Source: a virus
Virus record (IMG/VR): IMGVR_UViG_3300021140_000018
Coordinates: 1-38,241 of that record
Direction: 5' to 3' (one strand)
DNA length: 38,241 bases
This document shows positions 6,379-22,725 of the stretch, in pieces; position 1 is the stretch's first letter, and every line of letters begins with the position of its first letter. Both the position numbers and the translations under genes were made by a program. Below the pieces are notes generated by a model. The model saw nothing but the letters and a program-made list of their open reading frames with translations. It did no database searches and was not told the DNA's origin.

Positions 6379-7779
6379 ATGATTATTACCCGTGATATTA
6401 TCCGTGATGATGCTACATTCAACGGCTATTCTAAACAAGACTTATGTGAGTTTATCAACTATTGGAAGATCAATCTTATAGACCGTGGTGCGAAACCTGG
6501 TGATAAGATTGGTCTTTTGTTTGATAATACACAGATACATTACTATGCTCTAATCTTTGCTGGATTTGAATTGGGTATGCGTGTTGTTACATTGCACCGA
6601 CCTGATAATGAGAAGCAATGCCAATCACCAAAGAGCAATGCTCACCTTCCACTGGACTACTTTGTTTATCTGAAACAATACCTTACTGCAACTGATACAA
6701 GTATGGGTGTTGTGCATTTCAGAAAGAACGCCAAGCAATGTATCAGCTATGGTCCTCTGGAATGGAAGATCATGAGTGATACTTTCAGAACAAAAGAAGA
6801 AACACCAATACATGCCACACCTGATACTGTGGCCTTTTGTTGCACCAGTAGCGGTACGACTGGTGATCCTAAGCTAATAGGATACACACACGAGTTTCTA
6901 TATAAACTTTGTCAGTATAATCGGAGTGCCCTCGGTTACGATAGAGACGACAAGATGGTTCATCTATCAAGCCTCAATCATGGTGGTGTTATCTCTCTGT
7001 TACTGCCTGCTCTAATGACATGTAAAGAGCATTACTTTAAGGTATTCTCACACGGTCGTGATCCTGTTGATACGCTTGTTGATGACTGTATAGACAAAGG
7101 CATAACCAAGGTATTCTTTTCTAATGGCGGTGAGGTCAACTGTTTCTTAGGTTCATTGAACTGTCGCAATAAGAACCTACCTGATGCTTCTCTCTATCTA
7201 CTATCATTCATATCACCAAAGTGGAAGCCGATAGTTAAAACTGGCCGTGTAAAGGATATTGTCAGCGTGTTTGGCTGCTCCGAGATATGTGGCCCAGTAT
7301 TCTTACCTCGTTTGGATATACACAATGTAGATACATTTGAGCCAACATACTTGGGGCGCCCAACCACTGGCTTCTATGATACCCGAATAGTTGGTGATAG
7401 AATACACACGGTTGTGAATGATAAAGAGTTTGTCTTTGATGATATTGTCCGTGAGGATGATGGTGTTCATTTCATATCTAAGACCAGACTATGCAAGATC
7501 AATGACATTGATATCAACCCACTGGATATCATATCCATATTGGAAGAGTTTGCCACAAGATATGTGTTCGAGGTCTATGTGGATGAGGTCTACAACGAAC
7601 TATACATCATAACAAGTAAGGAGGACCTCGTGATTGATAAGGTGGAAAAGTTCTACTTCGGTAATGTTCCTGTCAAGATGATATATTACCCAAGTTTGCA
7701 TTACACACGGGTCAACCACAAGGCGGACAGTGAGAAGTTAAAGGCTATTGTTGAGAAGCAAAGGAAGATTGACAAATGA
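6379..7779 (+). CDS. ANL-superfamily adenylate-forming enzyme (acyl-CoA synthetase/AMP-ligase-like)
   Basis: 466 residues. Expected to activate a carboxylic acid as acyl-AMP; substrate unknown. Core motifs are visible: A3 phosphate loop C155-T-S-S-G-T-T-G-D-P-K165; A5 V297-F-G-C-S-E302; A7-like F353-D-D-I; hinge and A8 region around R370-L-C-K-I; and an A10-like T443-R-V-N-H-K448-A-D with Lys448 as candidate catalytic lysine. It is shorter than typical acyl-CoA synthetases (500-650 aa) and the part before A3 is compact. No separate carrier-protein gene or fused carrier domain is seen in the window. ATG 6379 lies in an ATGA overlap with the frame described for the upstream lipoprotein; the stop overlaps the secreted-protein start. 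Such a metabolic enzyme is unusual cargo between a nuclease and a tmRNA. Confidence 0.87.
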   Translation: MIITRDIIRDDATFNGYSKQDLCEFINYWKINLIDRGAKPGDKIGLLFDNTQIHYYALIFAGFELGMRVVTLHRPDNEKQCQSPKSNAHLPLDYFVYLKQYLTATDTSMGVVHFRKNAKQCISYGPLEWKIMSDTFRTKEETPIHATPDTVAFCCTSSGTTGDPKLIGYTHEFLYKLCQYNRSALGYDRDDKMVHLSSLNHGGVISLLLPALMTCKEHYFKVFSHGRDPVDTLVDDCIDKGITKVFFSNGGEVNCFLGSLNCRNKNLPDASLYLLSFISPKWKPIVKTGRVKDIVSVFGCSEICGPVFLPRLDIHNVDTFEPTYLGRPTTGFYDTRIVGDRIHTVVNDKEFVFDDIVREDDGVHFISKTRLCKINDIDINPLDIISILEEFATRYVFEVYVDEVYNELYIITSKEDLVIDKVEKFYFGNVPVKMIYYPSLHYTRVNHKADSEKLKAIVEKQRKIDK

Positions 7780-10891: not shown

Positions 10892-11818
10892 ATGAATTTT
10901 GCAAACCTCAAGAAACAGTCCAAGGACTTCACCAAGCTACTTAAGAAGGTTGAGGAAGTCAATAAGCCAACCTACGAGAATGCCGATAACACCGACAACT
11001 ATTGGAAGCCAACACCTGATAAGGCTGGTAACGCATTAGCTGTCATTCGCTTTCTACCAGGTGCCGCTGTGGACGGTGACGATGCACTACCATGGGTTCA
11101 GTATTGGGACCATGGTTTTCAGAGCAAAACAACCGGTAAGTGGTACATTGAGAAGTCATTGACTACCCTCGGTCAGGGTGTTAAAGATCCTGTCTCTGAA
11201 TATAACTCTATGCTATGGAACTCTAACTCTGATGATAACTCACCAGAGCGTAAGCAGGCCCGTGAACAGAAGCGCCGCTTGCATTATGTTTCTAACATCT
11301 ATGTTGTGAGTGACCCTAAGAATCCTCAGAATGAAGGTAAGGTCTTCCTATTCAAGTATGGTAAGAAAATCTTTGACAAGCTAACAAAGATGATGAACCC
11401 AGACCTTGAGTCCGAGGAAGCTATCAATCCTTACTGCCTTTGGAGTGGTGCGAACTTCAAGCTAAAGATGACCCGTCAGAGTGGCTTCCCCAACTATGAT
11501 GAGTCAACATTCTTGGCACCAGGTCCTCTAACAAAGGACGATGCTGAAATGGAGCAGATTTGGAAGTCAGAGTATTCTCTATCAGAGATTATCGATCCAA
11601 AGAACTTCAAGACCTATGATGAACTAAAGCGCCGCTTTGATGATGTTATGGGTATTGCTTCTTCTCGTCCAGCACCTGCCGCTAAGAAGGTAGTTGTCGA
11701 GGATGAGGAAGATGTTCCATTCACCGAGTCTAAGCCAGTTGCTAAGAAGGCTCCGGTAGTAGAGGAAGAAGATGAAGATTTGGCCATGTTCCGAGAACTG
11801 GCTGACTTAGACGACTAA
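10892..11818 (+). CDS. 32: single-stranded DNA-binding protein gp32
   Basis: 308 residues (T4 gp32 is 301). Coats ssDNA and organises the replisome (polymerase, gp59, gp41). Recognised from the core: V51-I-R-F-L-P-G, G-K-W-Y-I-E-K-S, N-I-Y-V-V-S-D-P-K-N-P-Q-N-E-G-K-V-F-L-F-K-Y-G-K-K-I-F-D-K, L-W-S-G-A-N-F-K-L-K, and S-G-F-P-N-Y-D-E-S-T-F-L. The zinc cysteines of T4 (77, 87, 90) are absent; only one Cys (C182) exists, so the core is presumably stabilised without zinc. The last 45 residues are very acidic (D/E runs, ending D-L-D-D), the protein-interaction tail. It has its own sigma70 promoter and terminator, implying a strong monocistronic message. Confidence 0.95.
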   Translation: MNFANLKKQSKDFTKLLKKVEEVNKPTYENADNTDNYWKPTPDKAGNALAVIRFLPGAAVDGDDALPWVQYWDHGFQSKTTGKWYIEKSLTTLGQGVKDPVSEYNSMLWNSNSDDNSPERKQAREQKRRLHYVSNIYVVSDPKNPQNEGKVFLFKYGKKIFDKLTKMMNPDLESEEAINPYCLWSGANFKLKMTRQSGFPNYDESTFLAPGPLTKDDAEMEQIWKSEYSLSEIIDPKNFKTYDELKRRFDDVMGIASSRPAPAAKKVVVEDEEDVPFTESKPVAKKAPVVEEEDEDLAMFRELADLDD

Positions 11819-11846: not shown

Positions 11847-11872
11847 GAGGGGCATTTTGCCCCTCTTTTTTT
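11847..11872 (+). terminator. Rho-independent terminator of gp32
   Basis: GAGGGGCA (11847-11854), TTT loop, TGCCCCTC (11858-11865), then seven T residues (11866-11872). It lies at the convergent junction with the minus-strand operon; the T-run touches the stop of the opposing gene. On the minus strand the same stem lacks a good U-tract. Confidence 0.92.
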
Positions 11873-14285
11873 ATCCTAGTTTTGTATTGGTCAATGATGT
11901 ATAGTTACTGCTGACAATACCTCTAGTATTATCCATAGCACGAGCCAGCGAAGGTGTTGGCTGCATATGTGCTGGTCTATTCTCCATTGGATTCATAGTA
12001 ATAGGACTTTGCTGCTTCTCAACTGGTGACATGCTTTGTCTATCAGGTTTAGCTGGTGACATTTCTAGCTTTTTGATATAGTTTTCATCCATAATAGATG
12101 GTGCAAAATCAACCGAACTTTTATCTACAGGCACATTAGCAGTAGGTGACTTTAGCTTTCTCATTCTATCAAATACCTGTGTGGTATTCTCACCTTCTGT
12201 TATTGGCTTGGCTTGTGCAGGTTCAGGACCGAGCAAGTCTCTAAATGGCTTGGTGATCTTAGCAGTCATTGATTCCTTTGGTGGTGCTGTTTCGATCTTA
12301 GGTGCTGGTTTAGCTAGTGCCAAAACATCCTTCTTTTCCTGCGAATAACGCTCCGAGAACTTATGCTTGGTATACTTTTCTCTAGCAGCATACAGAGCAT
12401 TGATCTGATCCTCGATGGCTGAACCAGCGGCGCTTTTGACCTTTGATACAATTCTCTTGGCACCACCATGCTGAACACCCATACTAAACAAGGCTTCTTT
12501 CATAGCAGGATGTTCTGTATTAAATCCTAGTTTCTTGGCATGTTGCTCTAGTGGATCATAGAGTGTTTTCTTAATGTATTCATGTTGTGACTTGGCAAAG
12601 GCCTCTGGGTCACTTACCGCAACTCTCTTATATGCCTCATTGAATGGTCTGCTTCCTGGTCTCATGCCTTGGAAATGATGAGCGAATTGCTTTCCTTCTT
12701 CTGACTTAAGATAGGCAGACATCATACCTGTTTTGGTTGATAGCTGGTGTTCTCCGTATGATACACCACCTTTATCACCCTTACCAGATGAAATAGTATG
12801 AACACCACGGGCACCTGACTCATATGGTCTAGATGCTGAACCCAATTCTTCACCACCAAGACCTTCGCCTCGACCAGTGATCATGCTGATAAAGCCCATA
12901 ATCTCACCGATCTGTCCAGTGTGTGTCTTTACCACATCTGATATCTGTGCGGTTGAGGCATATCTTGTGGCTTGCTGTTGATCAAAGTTAGTTTGGTTCT
13001 GACTTGTTTCATCTTTCTTAAACTCTACAGAACCAGTACCAGTGCCGGCACCGCCTTGAGTGCCACCTTTATCAAGAGCCTCAATGTTGCTCATAATTCT
13101 CTTTTTCTGTTCATCGTCAACTAGATTAGCACCCATCTGTAAGGCTTCTTTTGACTGTTCATCATGTATTCTGCCGTTAGACTGAACCAATCCGAACTTA
13201 ACTGATCCGCCCATGGCGCCGCCGCTATATTCGTCCTTATTGACTTGACGGACACGAGGCTTCTGTCCTTTAAACTGCTCTAGCAATAGGAAATTACCTG
13301 ACTCGTCTGGTGCCGTCATAGCAACACCAGTGTGGTATCCAGCGCCCATCCTATCGCCACCAGGTAGGTTGTAACGAGTGGTAGCTACTACCACACCAGG
13401 CTTAATCGGACCCTCTACAATCGTCCATCCTCCTGTTCTACCAAGGTCAGGATTAATTCCCTTAGATAGAGTGGCGCACTGTTCATCGTTCTTGGAATCG
13501 TATAGTGACTTGTCTTTAGGAACTACGAAGCCATTGGCATTCATTTCATAGTTTCCACCTGGTGTTTGACCACCACTTGGCTCACCAGCTTTGCCCATCA
13601 TAGCGTCAGAATAACCACCAGCCGTATGTGATCTATACATAGCTGTGGTTTCTGTATTGGCTGGTCGTTCAAAGTCTTTGGTGAATCCGATAGAAGCGTC
13701 AGAAGGATTGGCGAAGTTACGTGATAGATATGTTTTCATATCACCTTCTGTCATAGCAAAGTCAATCTGCTTCTTCCAGTTTGTTTGCCAACCTTCACCA
13801 ACATATTGCTTCATAGCCGAGAAACGAGAAGCATGGTGCTGAAATAGACCACCAGAGGTACCACCGTCACCGATAGCACCAGAGTTAAAGTTGGACTCAT
13901 ATTTCATATTGTTGACGATACCAGCGGCATGAACATGGTCGATGCCTTTTGAACGGATATAATCGTATATCTCTCTGGCTTTGACTACGTTGGTGACCTT
14001 CTCTGAAGATGATACTGAAGCACCAGATGATGTGGTCGCCTCGCCTTCCACTACACCGCCAGCTTTCTTCTTAGCAAGGGCATCATAGAAGCCTTTAACG
14101 TCTGGCATACCTTTTAGATAATATTTTGGGAATAGTTCAGCAAACTCTACAGGCGTTAGCATTGTGAAAGGAGAAGCCGCACCTAGTTTCTGCTGGTCAC
14201 GTAGCATACCAAAGCGTTTGGCTGGAGCCATTGCCTTCAGTTTAGAGAATATATTCTGACTTTGATTATCTATATTGAATGCCAT
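11871..14285 (-). CDS. tail-associated multidomain cell-wall hydrolase
   Basis: 804 residues. Three hydrolase-like regions are seen. (1) Residues 100-220 resemble phage tail lysozyme: G122-I-V-N-N-M-K-Y-E130-S-N-F-N with Glu130 as candidate acid, then G145-L-F-Q-H-H. (2) Residues 262-350 resemble the BPSL0067/NlpC-like group: E268-Q-C270 as nucleophile, P-G-V-V-V-A-T, G-Y-H318-T-G-V-A as candidate His. (3) Residues 486-640 resemble the C-terminal domain of VgrG3-type T6SS spikes: Y488-E489-S-G, S-S-G-K-G-D-K-G-G-V-S-Y-G. Linkers are Gly/Ser/Thr- and Pro-rich and the last 150 residues look disordered. It is last in the minus-strand hub operon (TAATG junction), so it is probably virion-borne and acts on peptidoglycan at DNA entry. 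The domain calls are from residue patterns. Confidence 0.72.
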   Translation of the reverse strand: MAFNIDNQSQNIFSKLKAMAPAKRFGMLRDQQKLGAASPFTMLTPVEFAELFPKYYLKGMPDVKGFYDALAKKKAGGVVEGEATTSSGASVSSSEKVTNVVKAREIYDYIRSKGIDHVHAAGIVNNMKYESNFNSGAIGDGGTSGGLFQHHASRFSAMKQYVGEGWQTNWKKQIDFAMTEGDMKTYLSRNFANPSDASIGFTKDFERPANTETTAMYRSHTAGGYSDAMMGKAGEPSGGQTPGGNYEMNANGFVVPKDKSLYDSKNDEQCATLSKGINPDLGRTGGWTIVEGPIKPGVVVATTRYNLPGGDRMGAGYHTGVAMTAPDESGNFLLLEQFKGQKPRVRQVNKDEYSGGAMGGSVKFGLVQSNGRIHDEQSKEALQMGANLVDDEQKKRIMSNIEALDKGGTQGGAGTGTGSVEFKKDETSQNQTNFDQQQATRYASTAQISDVVKTHTGQIGEIMGFISMITGRGEGLGGEELGSASRPYESGARGVHTISSGKGDKGGVSYGEHQLSTKTGMMSAYLKSEEGKQFAHHFQGMRPGSRPFNEAYKRVAVSDPEAFAKSQHEYIKKTLYDPLEQHAKKLGFNTEHPAMKEALFSMGVQHGGAKRIVSKVKSAAGSAIEDQINALYAAREKYTKHKFSERYSQEKKDVLALAKPAPKIETAPPKESMTAKITKPFRDLLGPEPAQAKPITEGENTTQVFDRMRKLKSPTANVPVDKSSVDFAPSIMDENYIKKLEMSPAKPDRQSMSPVEKQQSPITMNPMENRPAHMQPTPSLARAMDNTRGIVSSNYTSLTNTKLG

Positions 14286-14506
14286 TATCTTCTTCTTTTT
14301 CTGCTAAGTTGCGACATCATATTGCTGTATTCGTTTTCTTGCTGCTTGGCCAGATCGTCTTGTTCTTGAACCCATGCATTGAGCATATCAACATAGATAT
14401 GTTTTTCCCATGGCATCATACCTTCAACGTCACCTAAACTCCATCTATGATGGTGCATCAGATTAAAGTTTGACTTAAGCACATTTGCCAGTGAGTCATG
14501 ACCCAT
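14285..14506 (-). CDS. 51: gp51-like baseplate hub assembly protein
   Basis: 73 residues with the block F14-N-L-M-H-H-H-R-W-S-L-G-D-V-E-G-M-M-P-W-E-K, the pattern I know from small gp51-type hub assembly proteins of T4-like phages, then a charged helix ending R-K-R-R-R. T4 gp51 is much longer (about 249 aa), so this is the short form. It lies directly after gp26, as in T4 (26-51), and its TAA overlaps the ATG of the hydrolase. It probably helps assemble the central hub and may not stay in the virion. Confidence 0.65.
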   Translation of the reverse strand: MGHDSLANVLKSNFNLMHHHRWSLGDVEGMMPWEKHIYVDMLNAWVQEQDDLAKQQENEYSNMMSQLSRKRRR

Positions 14507-14508
14507 TA

Positions 14509-15234
14509 TCAGATAAAAAAATCAAAGAAATCTGTATACCTCACCTTATGCTCAAAACCACACTTATTACATTTGCTTTCGATCTTGGCAGCCACCGTAG
14601 GAAATCTATCTACATAGGCTTCTAGCTTCTTATAGTTTTCTTCGGTGAGACCTTCAACAAACTCTTTTAATTCTTCCGTTGTGTAGTCTTTATATGAGTG
14701 CATACCACTCTTGTCGTATATGTAATCGATAGAACTGACCACGATATGGGTCTTTTTGTCAATCTCTGGTAGTTCCTCGATCTTTCTCATAATACCATAG
14801 TTTGGGTATCTCATTCGGACACCAGACGCAGGACCTAGCTTGATATCATCCTGCACACCATCGTATTTGATTAGTTCAACATTGGAGATATCCATATCGG
14901 CAAGAAACTCATTGCCGCATACTTGTTCATTCTCCAATACATTATTACAGGTGAGTTTGACCGCTACCGTTTCACCTACCGACTTGGCTCTTAGAAAGAT
15001 AAAGAGATAGTCGATATCAAAGAACGGCAATTTATCAACGTCAATGTCACCATCAAGGATACAGTTGTTAATGACCTGCTTTACCGTTGTTATGATATCA
15101 GATGGTACCTTTGACTCAACGGCAATCAATATTAGCTTTTCTTCTTTAACCGTGAAAGGTCTAACTCTAATAGCCTTTCCACTGGATGGTACAACAAAGT
15201 CATACGCAGGTAGTTCAATCTTAGGCAATGCCAT
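14509..15234 (-). CDS. 26: baseplate hub protein gp26
   Basis: 241 residues (T4 gp26 is 208). Resembles the T4 baseplate gp26 family: S17-S-G-K-A-I-R-V-R-P-F-T-V-K-E-E-K-L-I-L near the N-terminus, F-D-I-D-Y-L-F-I-F-L-R-A-K-S, L-T-C96 ... C106 and C222-N-K-C225. The four cysteines look like a split zinc ribbon. Needed for hub assembly in T4. The order 48-54-26-51 on one strand supports the call. Stop and next start are two bases apart. Confidence 0.82.
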   Translation of the reverse strand: MALPKIELPAYDFVVPSSGKAIRVRPFTVKEEKLILIAVESKVPSDIITTVKQVINNCILDGDIDVDKLPFFDIDYLFIFLRAKSVGETVAVKLTCNNVLENEQVCGNEFLADMDISNVELIKYDGVQDDIKLGPASGVRMRYPNYGIMRKIEELPEIDKKTHIVVSSIDYIYDKSGMHSYKDYTTEELKEFVEGLTEENYKKLEAYVDRFPTVAAKIESKCNKCGFEHKVRYTDFFDFFI

Positions 15235-15249
15235 AATATATCTCCATTA

Positions 15250-15876
15250 TTATGTAAGTAGTGTTGGTCTATCCCAATTCTTATAGGTGAATGTTACTTG
15301 TAATCTCAATACATCTTGCTCGGCCCAGTTTACAGGCTGTGCATTGACAACCAGTGGCCATGCTCTCAATAGTCTCCAGTGATATGAGATATGTGGTGTC
15401 CATGTGGCACCAGTTAGTGGTATGACTGACAGTGGACCGAGAGGTGATGGATCCGCATATTCTGAATATTGAAATATGTTAATCTCAGAGAAATACTCAT
15501 TTGGATAGCTATAGTTAAAGTTATTAACTGGGTTGATAAAGTCCATCCAATCGTCAAAGAACCTACGTTCACGAGAGTCCGAACGGCATAGAAACGATAA
15601 TGTTATTGGCTGATATTCCGTATTTGTTGGGAATACCTGTGATGGACCATAGTAACGAGCCTGTGCCACCGAGAAGCTACGGCCTGGTAACTCTGCCGTA
15701 TCGCAAAGCATATGAAGGTCTGGCACCAATGCTCTTGATTTAATAGCGGCTGGTGGTGTAATTGATACAGCAAAACGGGAGCCTCTTGTTAGAGAGCCGC
15801 CCATGTCTAGCGAGCCTAGAAAGGCCAGCATATTCATAAATTTTGGTCCGACTTGTCCTACTTGTTGAACTGGCAT
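15250..15876 (-). CDS. 54: baseplate tail-tube initiator gp54-like (gp19-fold)
   Basis: 208 residues with the T4 gp19 tube-protein fold pattern: F36-A-V-S-I-T-P-P, C-D-T-A-E-L-P-G-R-S-F, Y-Q-P-I-T-L-S-F-L-C-R-S-D-S-R-E-R-R-F-F-D-D-W-M, and a C-terminal L-R-L-Q-V-T-F-T-Y-K-N-W. In T4, gp54 sits on gp48 and nucleates tube growth. Here it directly follows gp48 (one base between), matching T4 order, and T4 gp54 is longer (320 aa), so this is a reduced form. It could alternatively be called a tail tube-like protein; the main gp19 tube gene would lie elsewhere. Confidence 0.72.
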   Translation of the reverse strand: MPVQQVGQVGPKFMNMLAFLGSLDMGGSLTRGSRFAVSITPPAAIKSRALVPDLHMLCDTAELPGRSFSVAQARYYGPSQVFPTNTEYQPITLSFLCRSDSRERRFFDDWMDFINPVNNFNYSYPNEYFSEINIFQYSEYADPSPLGPLSVIPLTGATWTPHISYHWRLLRAWPLVVNAQPVNWAEQDVLRLQVTFTYKNWDRPTLLT

Positions 15877-15877
15877 A

Positions 15878-16732
15878 TTAGTATCCGTTGTCTACGTCTG
15901 CTTGACTGATTACACGCATTTCCTGGAAGACTAGTGATAGGAATGCCTGTGTTGGGCTACCGTCTTTAAATGCGCTGAACTCATTCTGTTGTGAATAGTT
16001 GACATCAACTCTTTTGAGAACACACTTAGCTATTCTAGGTAGGTATGGGTTCTCTTTAACCTGACCGTCTACCACATGTCTAAACTTGATATCGAACTCG
16101 GCTGGTGGTACGAACCAGAAGCCTGTTCTAAACTGTTCTGATAATATTGCACCAATATCACCAGGCAAGAAGTTCTGTAAATCTTGCTGCTGTTGTGAGG
16201 TGAGTGTGCCTGTAATTTCTGGTGCGGAGAACTTTCTTAGTATCTTGATAATGGCATGCATTTCACGCTGTTCTTCTTTTGACTGCGGAGCCATAAAGTA
16301 ATCGAATTGGAATGATCTTAGATCGGAGTTGGCATATAGAACATCGACCTTAGGATTAATAACACCTTGACCAGCTACTCTCGCTGCACCGGCTGCGGCC
16401 GCTGTGGCCGTGCCGATAACTGGAATACCACCAATAACCGATGTGCCTAGTCTTGTTAGCTTGACTTCATCGTATTCATGAGCCATCTGCCAGAATAGAG
16501 AACTGTTCTGACCACCACCTGGAATAAAGAGAGATATAGCTGTTGGTGACTTATCTTTGTTATTAGAAAACCTTGACTGACTTGGATAGGCAGTAATGGT
16601 CATAAAGTGACCTTGTGAATCCGATTTTAAGTCTAATGGAAATCTATGTGATGATCTGGTAGAACCACCAGCTGGTGTGCCCGCTATAGCACTACCAGCA
16701 GTTGTGAGATAATCCACACTATCGTTAGCCAT
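15878..16732 (-). CDS. 48: baseplate tail-tube cap gp48
   Basis: 284 residues. Caps the hub and starts the tail tube and tape measure in T4. Features: hydrophobic, Ala/Gly-rich stretch at about 98-120, then N126-P-K-V-D-V-L-Y-A-N-S-D-L-R-S-F-Q-F-D-Y, and S-K-E-E-Q-R-E-M-H-A-I-I-K-I-L-R, which matches the gp48/gp54 family. Shorter than T4 gp48 (364). First gene of the minus-strand hub operon, with GGAGG (16738-16742) and a late-type promoter on the same strand at 16755-16762. Confidence 0.78.
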   Translation of the reverse strand: MANDSVDYLTTAGSAIAGTPAGGSTRSSHRFPLDLKSDSQGHFMTITAYPSQSRFSNNKDKSPTAISLFIPGGGQNSSLFWQMAHEYDEVKLTRLGTSVIGGIPVIGTATAAAAGAARVAGQGVINPKVDVLYANSDLRSFQFDYFMAPQSKEEQREMHAIIKILRKFSAPEITGTLTSQQQQDLQNFLPGDIGAILSEQFRTGFWFVPPAEFDIKFRHVVDGQVKENPYLPRIAKCVLKRVDVNYSQQNEFSAFKDGSPTQAFLSLVFQEMRVISQADVDNGY

Positions 16733-19809: not shown

Positions 19810-21477
19810 ATGGGTAACTTTCCAGGACCAGATTCCAAGTTTTCTGTAGCGGTTGTTACAGATAAAAAAGCCGAAGATCATTCTGGTAATCAATCTTTTT
19901 ATTCTCCAATTGATCATGGTGAAGGTGTCAATGTAGATGACATGATGCTCTCACCAATGCTCAACTCACCAACTGGCTTTATGCAGCAGGCATTCCCAGG
20001 CGCTCTCGATCCAGGAACTCCAGTAGTTGTCCTTAAACAATTAGGTGAAACGGGCGGAATTATTCTAGGTCAGTCTAATACGGTAAGAAAGGGCGGTCAG
20101 AATGGTGGCGGTGGAGGCCGTCTAGGATCGACCCAGACAGTCAACCAGCTTACTCAAACGACCAGAGATGTCAATGTAGCACCCGACATTCAAGAGGTCG
20201 AGGAGAATGGCGTTAAAATCCGTAAGATTAAGGAAAAAGGACAGCAACATTCGCTTGATCTGCTAGAAGGATTACCTATTCACGGTGCCTTATTTGATAT
20301 GGCTGGTTTTAGATTACCTGAAATCACCAACGTACCGACTGCTAAACAGACCAATGACGGAATGGTCGGTATCCAGCAAATGCAGCAAATGATGGGTCAG
20401 GTCATGTCACTTGGCCAGATGATACAAGGTCTGGCTGGTAATAAAGGTGGCGGTGGTGGTGCAGGTGGCTTTGGTGCTGGTTCTTCTCTATTATCTGGTG
20501 CCCAGCCAGGCCAGGCATATACACCTCCAGGTGCCAATACGGGTGCGGGTGGTGCTGGTTACGGTGGCGGTCTAGGTGATAATATTATATTTGCTACCGA
20601 GGCTCCACCAGATACACCTCTCTATACTATTATGGAAGGCTTGACTACACCAATGAAGTCAGCCGTCAATTCTCTTTCTCTATTATTGCAAGGATATGAG
20701 GCTAATGACGGTGTAGCCTTTATGACTGGTGATGTGGTTCATGAGGACACATATCTTAAGAACGCACAAGAATTACTAAGTCAGGTCACCTCACTAAGCG
20801 AGTTGATGTATGTTCTTAATCGTCTGCAATGGGACACCGATCTATTTGGACAGGACAAAATTGAGCCAGTAATTAATGAGATCGAGACTGCCTGGGGCGT
20901 AGCATTACAGAAAATCGATGTTAATGGTAATGTCGTTATTACTTATGGCTATGAAGATGCAAATGCCGAGATGGAATTTGCCAATACTATGACCAGTAAT
21001 ACCGGCTCTCCTGCTCTAGGCTTCTTCGATGGTAATAGCACGACCGACGTTTTCTATTCAGTGAACGCTACAGGTGCCAGCTTAGGCTTTATTGACCCAG
21101 CAACTACAGGTGCCTCTGGTATTCCATCTGGTGGTTCTAAAGGCGGAACAACCGATGCTGGTCAGGTTATCGGTCAGGCTCAAGGTCTATTAGGTCAGAT
21201 TGAAGGTCTGGCACAGGGTATGAGCCAGAATATGTTTGGTGAAGCCGCTGGTACAATGAAAGAATTGTGGAAGCGTATGACACGAGAACAAGAAAACGAT
21301 GCCAAGAAAATGCACGAGAAATTAAATACATCTGGTGACACTCAGAATATGTCACAGATTGTGGAAAAGACCGTTAAAGGTGGTAATCCAGTTGATAAGA
21401 GTCTATTGAAAAAGGATGATCTTGAAACTAATGGCGATGCTGTTGGTCAAGGTAATTTTACCGTAGGCACAATGTAA
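19810..21477 (+). CDS. gp5-like baseplate hub OB-fold protein lacking lysozyme
   Basis: 555 residues. Residues 10-90 have the pattern of the gp5/VgrG OB-fold (F11-S-V-A-V-V-T-D, M46-L-S-P-M-L-N-S-P, D67-P-G-T-P-V-V-V-L, G-G-I-I-L-G-Q-S-N). The lysozyme domain that follows the OB-fold in T4 gp5 is not there; instead Gly-rich linkers (about 94-105 and 213-262), Met/Gln-rich helices (about 188-210) and an acidic middle. No beta-helix in this chain; it is in the next gene. Direct position after gp27 fits its T4 partner. Function of the 280-555 region unknown. Confidence 0.6.
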   Translation: MGNFPGPDSKFSVAVVTDKKAEDHSGNQSFYSPIDHGEGVNVDDMMLSPMLNSPTGFMQQAFPGALDPGTPVVVLKQLGETGGIILGQSNTVRKGGQNGGGGGRLGSTQTVNQLTQTTRDVNVAPDIQEVEENGVKIRKIKEKGQQHSLDLLEGLPIHGALFDMAGFRLPEITNVPTAKQTNDGMVGIQQMQQMMGQVMSLGQMIQGLAGNKGGGGGAGGFGAGSSLLSGAQPGQAYTPPGANTGAGGAGYGGGLGDNIIFATEAPPDTPLYTIMEGLTTPMKSAVNSLSLLLQGYEANDGVAFMTGDVVHEDTYLKNAQELLSQVTSLSELMYVLNRLQWDTDLFGQDKIEPVINEIETAWGVALQKIDVNGNVVITYGYEDANAEMEFANTMTSNTGSPALGFFDGNSTTDVFYSVNATGASLGFIDPATTGASGIPSGGSKGGTTDAGQVIGQAQGLLGQIEGLAQGMSQNMFGEAAGTMKELWKRMTREQENDAKKMHEKLNTSGDTQNMSQIVEKTVKGGNPVDKSLLKKDDLETNGDAVGQGNFTVGTM

Positions 21478-21486
21478 GAGGAACAA

Positions 21487-22725
21487 ATGAGTAATACAGA
21501 CGGTTCTAATATAGATGCTGGTGTTTCATTTAATGAAGAACCAAAGAAGCAATCACCTAAGAAGTGGAAGCAACCTCACAAGTCTGACGCTCGTAAAGCC
21601 AAGACCGCTGGTTCATATCCTGATTACTTCTCATGGAAGACTAGATCAGGTCATACGCTACAGTTAGATGATACCAAAGGCGGTGAGACTGTTACTCTAC
21701 AGCACCGTTCTGGTACCGCTATTCAGATGGCACCAGACGGTTCTATGCATGTCACCGCACATAACGGTAAATATGAGATTACTTTTGGTGAGAATAGAGT
21801 TACCATATCTGGTGCTCAAGATATCACAGTCAAAGGTGATGCCTCATTCCGTGTATATGGCGATTATAACGTCACCTGCCAGAAGGATTATAACCTCACC
21901 GTATTAGGTAATTTTAATCTAACTGCCAGAAACCATAACAGACAAATTCTTGGTAATATTGATACACAGGCCCGTAACGAGAATAAAAAGCTAATGGGTT
22001 CATCCGCCAAGATCGCCCGTGGTGCTATTGCTTATGTCTCTAAAGGTTCATCCACATTTGCTTCACAGTCCGATCAGGTTCATATTGGTGGTGCGGCTGG
22101 TATTAATATGGCTGTTAATGAAGGTGATATTACCAGTAACATCGAAAAGGGTGGTTTCTATTCATCTACCAAAGACGGCTCGGTCAATGTGACTGCCGAT
22201 GGTTCTGACGGTAATATTCGTATGAGAACCAAACAAGGTAAGATGGAGTTCAAATCAAAAGAAGATATGAACCACACCACAGAAAGCGGCAACTATAAAG
22301 TGACCGCTACTCAAGGTGATATTGGTCACGAGGCTGCCGCAGGTAATATTGAAATGTCAGCAACGGCAGGCGGTGTTAAAACTCGTGGACTTAATTATAG
22401 TGTAACCGCTACACAAAGCGCCGAGGTCACCACAGGCACCGATCTTGACCTTCGTTCTGGTGGTAGAGCAAGTCTCCACGGTGCCACAACCTCACACGTT
22501 ACTGGTGCCACTGTTAATGTCAAAGGTGATAGTATTACTAACGTTGATGGACCTACGGCACTCAATCTTAATGGTGGCATTTCACAGGCTATGTCCGCTA
22601 TTAGTCTACAGATACCATTTGACTTTGGTTCATTCACTGATCCAGAAGAAAAAACTGGTACATCTCGTGGTGTTCATGCACCAGATAGACCAGCAGGCAG
22701 AAGCGAAGCGGATAACTGGGCATAA
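21487..22725 (+). CDS. tail spike beta-helix protein (gp5 C-terminal / VgrG-needle-like)
   Basis: 412 residues. Residues 48-100 match the start of gp5/VgrG needles: F49-S-W-K-T-R-S-G-H-T-L-Q-L-D-D-T-K-G-G-E-T-V-T-L, then R-S-G-T-A-I-Q-M. Downstream are repeated short strands (D-I-T-V-K-G-D, N-L-T-V-L-G, N-V-T-A-D-G, Y-K-V-T-A-T), the signature of a triple-stranded intertwined beta-helix, up to about residue 375. It would be the membrane-piercing needle. Separated from the OB-fold protein, so the T4 gp5 architecture is split over two genes. The N-terminal 45 residues are basic and disordered. AGAGGA ribosome site at 21477-21482. Confidence 0.8.
   Translation: MSNTDGSNIDAGVSFNEEPKKQSPKKWKQPHKSDARKAKTAGSYPDYFSWKTRSGHTLQLDDTKGGETVTLQHRSGTAIQMAPDGSMHVTAHNGKYEITFGENRVTISGAQDITVKGDASFRVYGDYNVTCQKDYNLTVLGNFNLTARNHNRQILGNIDTQARNENKKLMGSSAKIARGAIAYVSKGSSTFASQSDQVHIGGAAGINMAVNEGDITSNIEKGGFYSSTKDGSVNVTADGSDGNIRMRTKQGKMEFKSKEDMNHTTESGNYKVTATQGDIGHEAAAGNIEMSATAGGVKTRGLNYSVTATQSAEVTTGTDLDLRSGGRASLHGATTSHVTGATVNVKGDSITNVDGPTALNLNGGISQAMSAISLQIPFDFGSFTDPEEKTGTSRGVHAPDRPAGRSEADNWA

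Follow-up and report, generated by a model that had tools for sequence, protein, structure and literature searches.

Gene organization of the hub locus

The window, by which we mean the whole stretch of 38,241 nucleotides that was analysed (IMG/VR record IMGVR_UViG_3300021140_000018), is a 38-kb virus record that is probably a fragment. On its minus strand it carries an operon of baseplate genes in the order gp48-like, gp54 position, gp26 and gp51-like, which ends with an open reading frame for a protein of 804 aa (14285 to 11871) that we refer to as gene X. A sequence-only reading of the same DNA had placed this gene last in a hub operon, and the gene order agrees with that. The features of the locus are:

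15878..16732, minus strand: baseplate tail tube cap, gp48-like (phrog_230, 9.7e-34)
15250..15876, minus strand: tail-tube-like hub gene at the gp54 position (phrog_45, 6.6e-30)
14509..15234, minus strand: gp26 homologue, baseplate hub (PF12322, 9.4e-52; phrog_150, 1.4e-55)
14285..14506, minus strand: gp51-like ORF of 73 aa (from its translation; directly upstream of X wherever the upstream sequence of a homologue is covered)
11871..14285, stop codon included, minus strand: gene X, 804-aa hub-locus multi-hydrolase (uninterrupted open frame; near-identical copies in other IMG/VR contigs)
11847..11865, no strand assigned, scored on the plus strand: terminator-like hairpin (8 pairs, 6 of them GC, and a T run)
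19810..22725, plus strand: gp5-like pair, probably split, of a 555-aa protein and a 412-aa spike protein (phrog_430 and a sub-threshold Gp5_trimer_C match, both in the 412-aa protein)

The stop codon of the gp51-like ORF overlaps with the ATG of X in the sequence TAATG, and both by position and by the motif M[MI]P[WFY]E..[IV]Y the ORF is like the small gp51 genes found in Cr30, DLP6 and S-RSM4. Near-identical copies of X were found in several other IMG/VR contigs (L002, L003, L004, L005 and L007). The hairpin lies between X and a convergent gene (10892-11818) that is ssDNA-binding-like, judging from its position and from a comparison with relatives. The baseplate genes of the window are nearest to those of T4-like phages of Synechococcus, Pelagibacter, Methylophilales, Caulobacter, Ochrobactrum and Stenotrophomonas, all of them distant (about 28-39% identity).

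Both gp5-like proteins of the window (555 and 412 aa) lack a lysozyme domain, and the T4-type lysozyme (PF00959) was absent from the window and from four related contigs. The 555-aa protein had no match to any family and the 412-aa spike protein is beta-rich; the Methylophilales phage Melnitz likewise annotates a separate gp5 OB-domain protein. Elsewhere in the window (6379-7779, plus strand) we found a gene for a 466-aa AMP-binding enzyme (PF00501, E 8.3e-15), an adenylating enzyme in a T4-like phage, which is also present in a 172-kb relative (57% identity).

Domain architecture of X

The sequence-only reading had seen in X three distinct domains resembling cell-wall hydrolases, joined by flexible linkers. 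Our analysis divides the protein as follows:

14061..14285, minus strand, aa 1-75: N-terminal constant domain, proposed docking/assembly domain (common to 44 non-redundant proteins)
13611..13979, minus strand, aa 103-225: slot 1, Phage_lysozyme2 domain with E130 as the catalytic Glu (Pfam and phi29 gp13 match; E130 invariant)
13116..13532, minus strand, aa about 252-390: slot 2, BPSL0067/NlpC/CHAP-like domain with C270, H318 and Q337 (NF033857 in relatives; weak CHAP folds; invariant residues)
12321..12845, minus strand, aa 481-655: slot 3, VgrG3 C-terminal muramidase domain with E489 and D504 (PF21277; VgrG3 4noo)
11874..12320, minus strand, aa 656-804: C-terminal tail, mostly predicted disordered (pLDDT < 50), with a partly conserved end (PSLxRAM) in the alignment

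The first domain can be assigned securely, by sequence comparison, to the tail lysozymes of the phi29 gp13 type. It matched the Pfam family Phage_lysozyme2 (E 5.4e-17, 62.7 bits against a curated cut-off of 28.2), and its profile retrieved phi29 gp13 from the PDB (3csr, E 1.5e-11) with E130 aligned on E45 of gp13, the catalytic residue of that enzyme. E130 was invariant in 29 of 29 homologues. The earlier proposal that the lysozyme activity had been taken out of gp5 is not borne out, as the domain belongs to another family and the gp5-like genes of the window carry no lysozyme; its different origin points to a non-homologous replacement and not to a relocation from gp5.

Equally secure is the homology of the third domain to the C-terminal muramidase domain of VgrG3, with a match to T6SS_VgrG3-like_C (PF21277) at an E-value of 1.2e-41 (143.2 bits against a Pfam cut-off of 27) and, in a phmmer search of the PDB, matches to VgrG3 of V. 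cholerae (4noo and 4nso) at about 1e-21 (6.8e-22 for 4noo). E489 aligned to the Glu of the 'YES' motif in VgrG3 and D504 lies 15 residues further on; both were invariant in all 12 homologues, and their counterparts are the catalytic pair of VgrG3. The whole-protein model of X, which has a low overall pLDDT (56) and was used for fold searches at the domain level only, matched phi29 gp13 with domain 1 and VgrG3 with domain 3 in Foldseek, in both cases with prob 1.00.

The middle domain is probably an NlpC/CHAP-like cysteine hydrolase, an assignment for which three lines of evidence were found. At the level of the family, the NCBIfam profile NF033857 (BPSL0067_fam) matched four of the 11 members tested (best E 8.7e-6; the sequence from the window is not among the four). 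The AlphaFold model of the domain (pLDDT 84, pTM 0.83) had as its best PDB fold the CHAP endolysin 6ist, with prob 0.91 but with E 0.1 and TM 0.40, which is not significant, and the full-length model gave a weak match to the CHAP domain of the phi812 hub (Foldseek prob 0.30). The conserved residues, C270 and H318 in 38 of 38 homologues and Q337 in all 37 in which the column is filled, occur in the order of the Cys, the His and the third polar residue of BPSL0067, NlpC-P60 and CHAP enzymes, and in the model they are predicted to stand as in NlpC/CHAP enzymes, with the Cys where a helix starts, the His ahead of a strand and the Gln where the following strand ends.

An alternative would be that the middle domain has a binding or structural role, which would leave X with two enzymes. 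It fits with this that the domain gave no credible Pfam match in any of the 11 members, nothing meaningful in a sequence search of the PDB and no cellular relative in a scan of 84,980 prokaryote genomes (43 pattern matches), and that the CHAP fold match fell short of significance. A search of cultured phages with the domain also gave nothing. Nevertheless, the invariance of the three residues, their predicted placement, the BPSL0067 profile match and the finding that some relatives fill the same slot with an Amidase_2 or YkuD-like domain argue for a hydrolase, and we consider a non-enzymatic middle domain improbable.

The stretches at about 407-513 and 660-804 are predicted to be disordered (pLDDT < 50), in line with the flexible linkers that had been proposed. 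The earlier picture of three domains is upheld in that domains 1 and 3 are secure (Pfam, PDB and Foldseek) and domain 2 is probable; profile searches and structure prediction did not leave two of the three regions without a hydrolase fold. From the invariance across homologues it follows that E130, C270, H318 and E489 had been picked correctly, and D504 completes the acidic pair of domain 3.

A family with a constant N-terminus and three variable slots

With the complete X sequence, its lysozyme region, its N-terminal domain and its middle domain as queries, IMG/VR yielded 47 non-redundant proteins, that of the window included. The N-terminal domain of about 75 aa was matched by 44 of these (the exceptions being L151, L152 and the 5'-truncated L153), nearly all from uncultured phages; a search of 50,697 records from cultured phages for the same domain gave zero matches at E<=1. 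In every homologue for which enough upstream sequence was covered, gp26 and the gp51-like ORF were found directly upstream of X.

The three slots behind this domain are filled in different ways. Among the occupants of slot 1 are a tail lysozyme, an SLT_3 domain, a glucosaminidase and a SleB-like domain. Slot 2 nearly always holds the cysteine domain and otherwise Amidase_2 or a sub-threshold YkuD-like domain; slot 3 holds a VgrG3-like domain, a second tail lysozyme or one of several transglycosylase- or lysozyme-like domains that we labelled LT, TG, GH and SLEB. One divergent member has a peptidase M23. The labels were derived from in-family profiles that were seeded, where possible, on members named by Pfam or PHROG. 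The match of LT is to an 'endolysin' PHROG (3.6e-20), that of TG to a 'transglycosylase' PHROG (3.1e-6); for GH, LT and TG there was no Pfam match above the cut-off, and their PHROG and PDB support is weak. GH has an invariant GEG motif and belongs to no named family, so that its enzymatic nature is suggested by its place. Labels M15 and SGNH for L132, which had been assigned by eye, found no support in Pfam and were dropped. Going by the named families of the best-supported members, slots 1 and 3 would mostly carry glycan-cutting enzymes and slot 2 mostly enzymes acting on the peptide or amide side, with the other members assigned by extension.

Some relatives contain elements that are absent from the protein of the window. 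In one subclade (L145, L146, L148, L140, L137 and L022) slot 3 is preceded by a hydrophobic stretch, LGLITTAMGFIMPLIGS, which is possibly membrane-active. In many relatives (L021, L105, L158, L020, L117 and others) an additional module of about 80 aa (YKFDPDKYYNEV...) recurs between slots 2 and 3.

Exchange of enzyme cassettes

Related phages keep the N-terminal anchor and exchange the enzyme cassettes. This is seen most directly in a comparison of the window with its nearest relative (L006), in which gp26 is 94% identical, domain 1 98% and domain 2 86%. At the DNA level the two are 75-97% identical up to about codon 480, fall to background from 481 to about 665 and are again more alike from there to the end. 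The replaced segment is the VgrG3 domain, in the place of which L006 has a different domain that matches a PHROG named endolysin. A second pair behaves alike, with VgrG3 in L048 and L105 versus LT in L021. The L006 version of X is known from one contig; an assembly chimera is unlikely as the source of the swap, because near-identical genes with the VgrG3 domain occur in several other contigs and because the slot-3 domain of L006 recurs in L021, L100, L104, L145 and L146.

Mapped on a gp26 tree, the minimum number of changes was at least 14 among 23 proteins for slot 3, 10 among 32 for slot 1 and 3 among 34 for slot 2. The 14 changes in slot 3 compare with a mean of 12.7 after shuffling, which we do not read as a meaningful excess, and the contrast is inflated since near-identical proteins had been removed, which favours neighbours that differ; we therefore claim for slot 3 only the absence of a detectable signal of descent. 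Horizontal exchange predicts that cassettes can be more alike than their surroundings, and this was found for some of them: slot-1 cassettes of the SLT_3 type share 82% identity in phages with 54% identity in gp26 and 43% in domain 2, and tail lysozyme cassettes share 80% in phages with 58% in gp26 and 40% in domain 2.

Among cultured cyanophages, too, cassettes may be exchanged. Proteins of S-RIM32 (KU594606), S-CAM3 and S-RSM4 that are encoded next to gp51 or close to that position share only parts with the protein of Sf-FP1, namely 1-245 or about 308-479.

Proposed function and alternative explanations

Taking the domains, the invariant catalytic residues, the position in the operon and the cassette exchange together, we consider it likely that X is a lysin carried in the virion, associated with the tail hub, that opens peptidoglycan and combines a constant chassis with shuffled hydrolases. 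Its place in the virion we infer from the operon, the anchor and analogy, since cultured relatives have tape-measure-like or hydrolase-bearing proteins at the corresponding position; the absence of a lysozyme from the gp5-like proteins of the window also fits a separate entry lysin. The N-terminal domain, made beside gp26 and gp51 and probably assembled with them, would anchor the protein in the hub or tube, and upon contraction of the tail the flexible linkers would allow the three enzymes to reach the thin periplasmic wall. There, a cysteine domain that cuts peptides (slot 2) would lie between two glycan-cutting domains (slots 1 and 3), and cross-links and glycan strands could be cut at the same time at the point of entry; the distribution of enzyme types over the slots fits an enzyme that opens a hole in this way. 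Recombination would then exchange the enzymes across relatives with the anchor being retained. Purified virions of the cyanophage S-CREM2 contain two annotated 'endolysins' in abundance (73 and 71 unique peptides), which are, according to the table in that paper, encoded just before the central spike genes (PMC10665884); the analogy with X is one of gene order.

The main rival to the virion-lysin reading is that X is the tape measure protein, the equivalent of gp29, and bears hydrolases as well, as in phages with muralytic tape measures. It occupies the position after gp26 and gp51 that is taken by the annotated tape measures of HTVC008M and Cr30, and in DLP6, S-RSM4 and Sf-FP1 by a tape-measure-like protein with a C-terminal hydrolase; a T4 gp29 homologue was not found in the window (phrog_1283 absent) or in most related contigs, nor did any of 10 large candidates among the proteins of the 172-kb relative match a tape measure family. 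Domain 1 matches PHROG profiles that bear the name tape measure, but these matches are confined to the lysozyme domain and there was no sequence match to the gp29 family. X of the window also lacks a hydrophobic segment (best 19-aa window 0.97, against 2.20 in T4 gp29 and 1.84 in the HTVC008M tape measure, with one subclade of X that reaches 1.8), its non-enzyme parts vary in length among relatives and are predicted to be disordered and not to form long helices, and its N-terminal domain showed no homology to the tape measure of HTVC008M. Tape measures and X are possibly linked by a related protein of 703 aa (L025 / G003:C1:128704-129498) that combines a weak T4 gp29-like stretch (E 3.9e-4) with the same tail lysozyme domain. 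On balance we hold a tape measure to be unlikely, and the two readings overlap, since one protein can serve as tape measure and as virion lysin.

Much less probable still is that X acts late in infection, as an endolysin for lysis of the host from the inside, and is merely encoded beside the hub genes. Endolysins are, like X, typically multi-domain, modular wall hydrolases, and some slot-3 relatives are named endolysin by PHROG; against this stand the constant N-terminal domain, the invariable linkage to gp26 and gp51 with overlapping start and stop codons, the length of the family members (698-1134 aa) with their long disordered tails, and the lack of a signal-anchor segment in X.

Going beyond a virion lysin, X might be the founding member of a class of polymorphic hub effectors in phages, with an N-terminal delivery domain not known from cultured phages, interchangeable wall enzymes, a positional rule of glycan cutter, peptide cutter and glycan cutter, and a turnover so fast that close relatives differ, perhaps in pursuit of wall modifications or hydrolase inhibitors of the host. 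We put this forward tentatively, as an idea that could well be wrong.

Relation to known systems

The common picture of the entry lysin in T4-like phages is that of a single conserved lysozyme within the spike. T4 gp5, the baseplate hub lysozyme, shares with X the proposed role of opening the wall at entry, and differs in its lysozyme family (PF00959), in having one enzyme and in being part of the spike. The uncultured lineage described here has a separate protein at the hub locus, in which the anchor is constant and the wall enzymes are shuffled in the manner of the toxic domains in polymorphic T6SS effectors. Virion-associated lysins with several domains and domain mosaicism were known already; what is new is a form with an anchor and three exchanged slots in the hub operon of a T4-like phage.

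Phi29 gp13, a wall-degrading enzyme of the tail tip, has the homologous tail lysozyme domain with the same catalytic Glu and also combines a lysozyme with a peptide-cutting domain in one tail-associated protein, but it has two domains and belongs to a short-tailed phage of a Gram-positive host, whereas X has three domains, with that of VgrG3 added, and a different anchor. VgrG3 of V. cholerae, a T6SS evolved effector, shares the homologous muramidase domain, the conserved Glu/Asp pair and the setting of a contractile injection machine. The sequence-only reading had likened X to such evolved effectors, and this holds for the homology of domain 3 and for the polymorphic plan of chassis plus cassettes; it does not hold for the spike. 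In VgrG3 the enzyme is fused to the spike itself, whereas X has no gp5/VgrG spike domain and thus misses the defining feature of an evolved VgrG; its muramidase domain is joined to two other enzymes in a protein of its own at the hub locus. In contrast to VgrG3 effectors, no immunity gene was identified for X. The WHIX 'double-blade' T6SS effectors (PMC12135965) have a constant delivery domain and exchangeable peptidoglycan-targeting domains as well, a likeness of plan only, and differ from X, in which the constant domain is N-terminal and phage-encoded.

Tape measures with wall hydrolase domains have been described for TM4, T5 and phiIPLA35 (cited in PMC6116005). These and the proteins at the gp29 position in HTVC008M, Cr30, DLP6, S-RSM4 and Sf-FP1 resemble X in that the latter follow gp26/gp51 and several carry hydrolases, and differ in the hydrophobic core segment that X lacks and in the N-terminal domain, which is X's own. 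A study of domain mosaicism in phage proteins detected recent cases among endolysins, tail fibres/spikes and DNA polymerases, but was unable to confirm any for tape measure proteins (PMC10684548). The process, domain exchange within a protein, is the same in X, a hub-locus lysin. X is a concrete example of such recent exchange in a core gene of the tail, a setting in which confirmation has been hard (PMC10684548). The family is at the same time a natural collection of multi-enzyme combinations, and it raises the question whether a cassette is selected by the wall or by an inhibitor of the host.

A further protein from a cultured phage, Cobetia phage Carin-5 (L013, record 65079-68018), is 979 aa long, has a VgrG3-like domain (48% identity) and is encoded among baseplate tail-tube genes.
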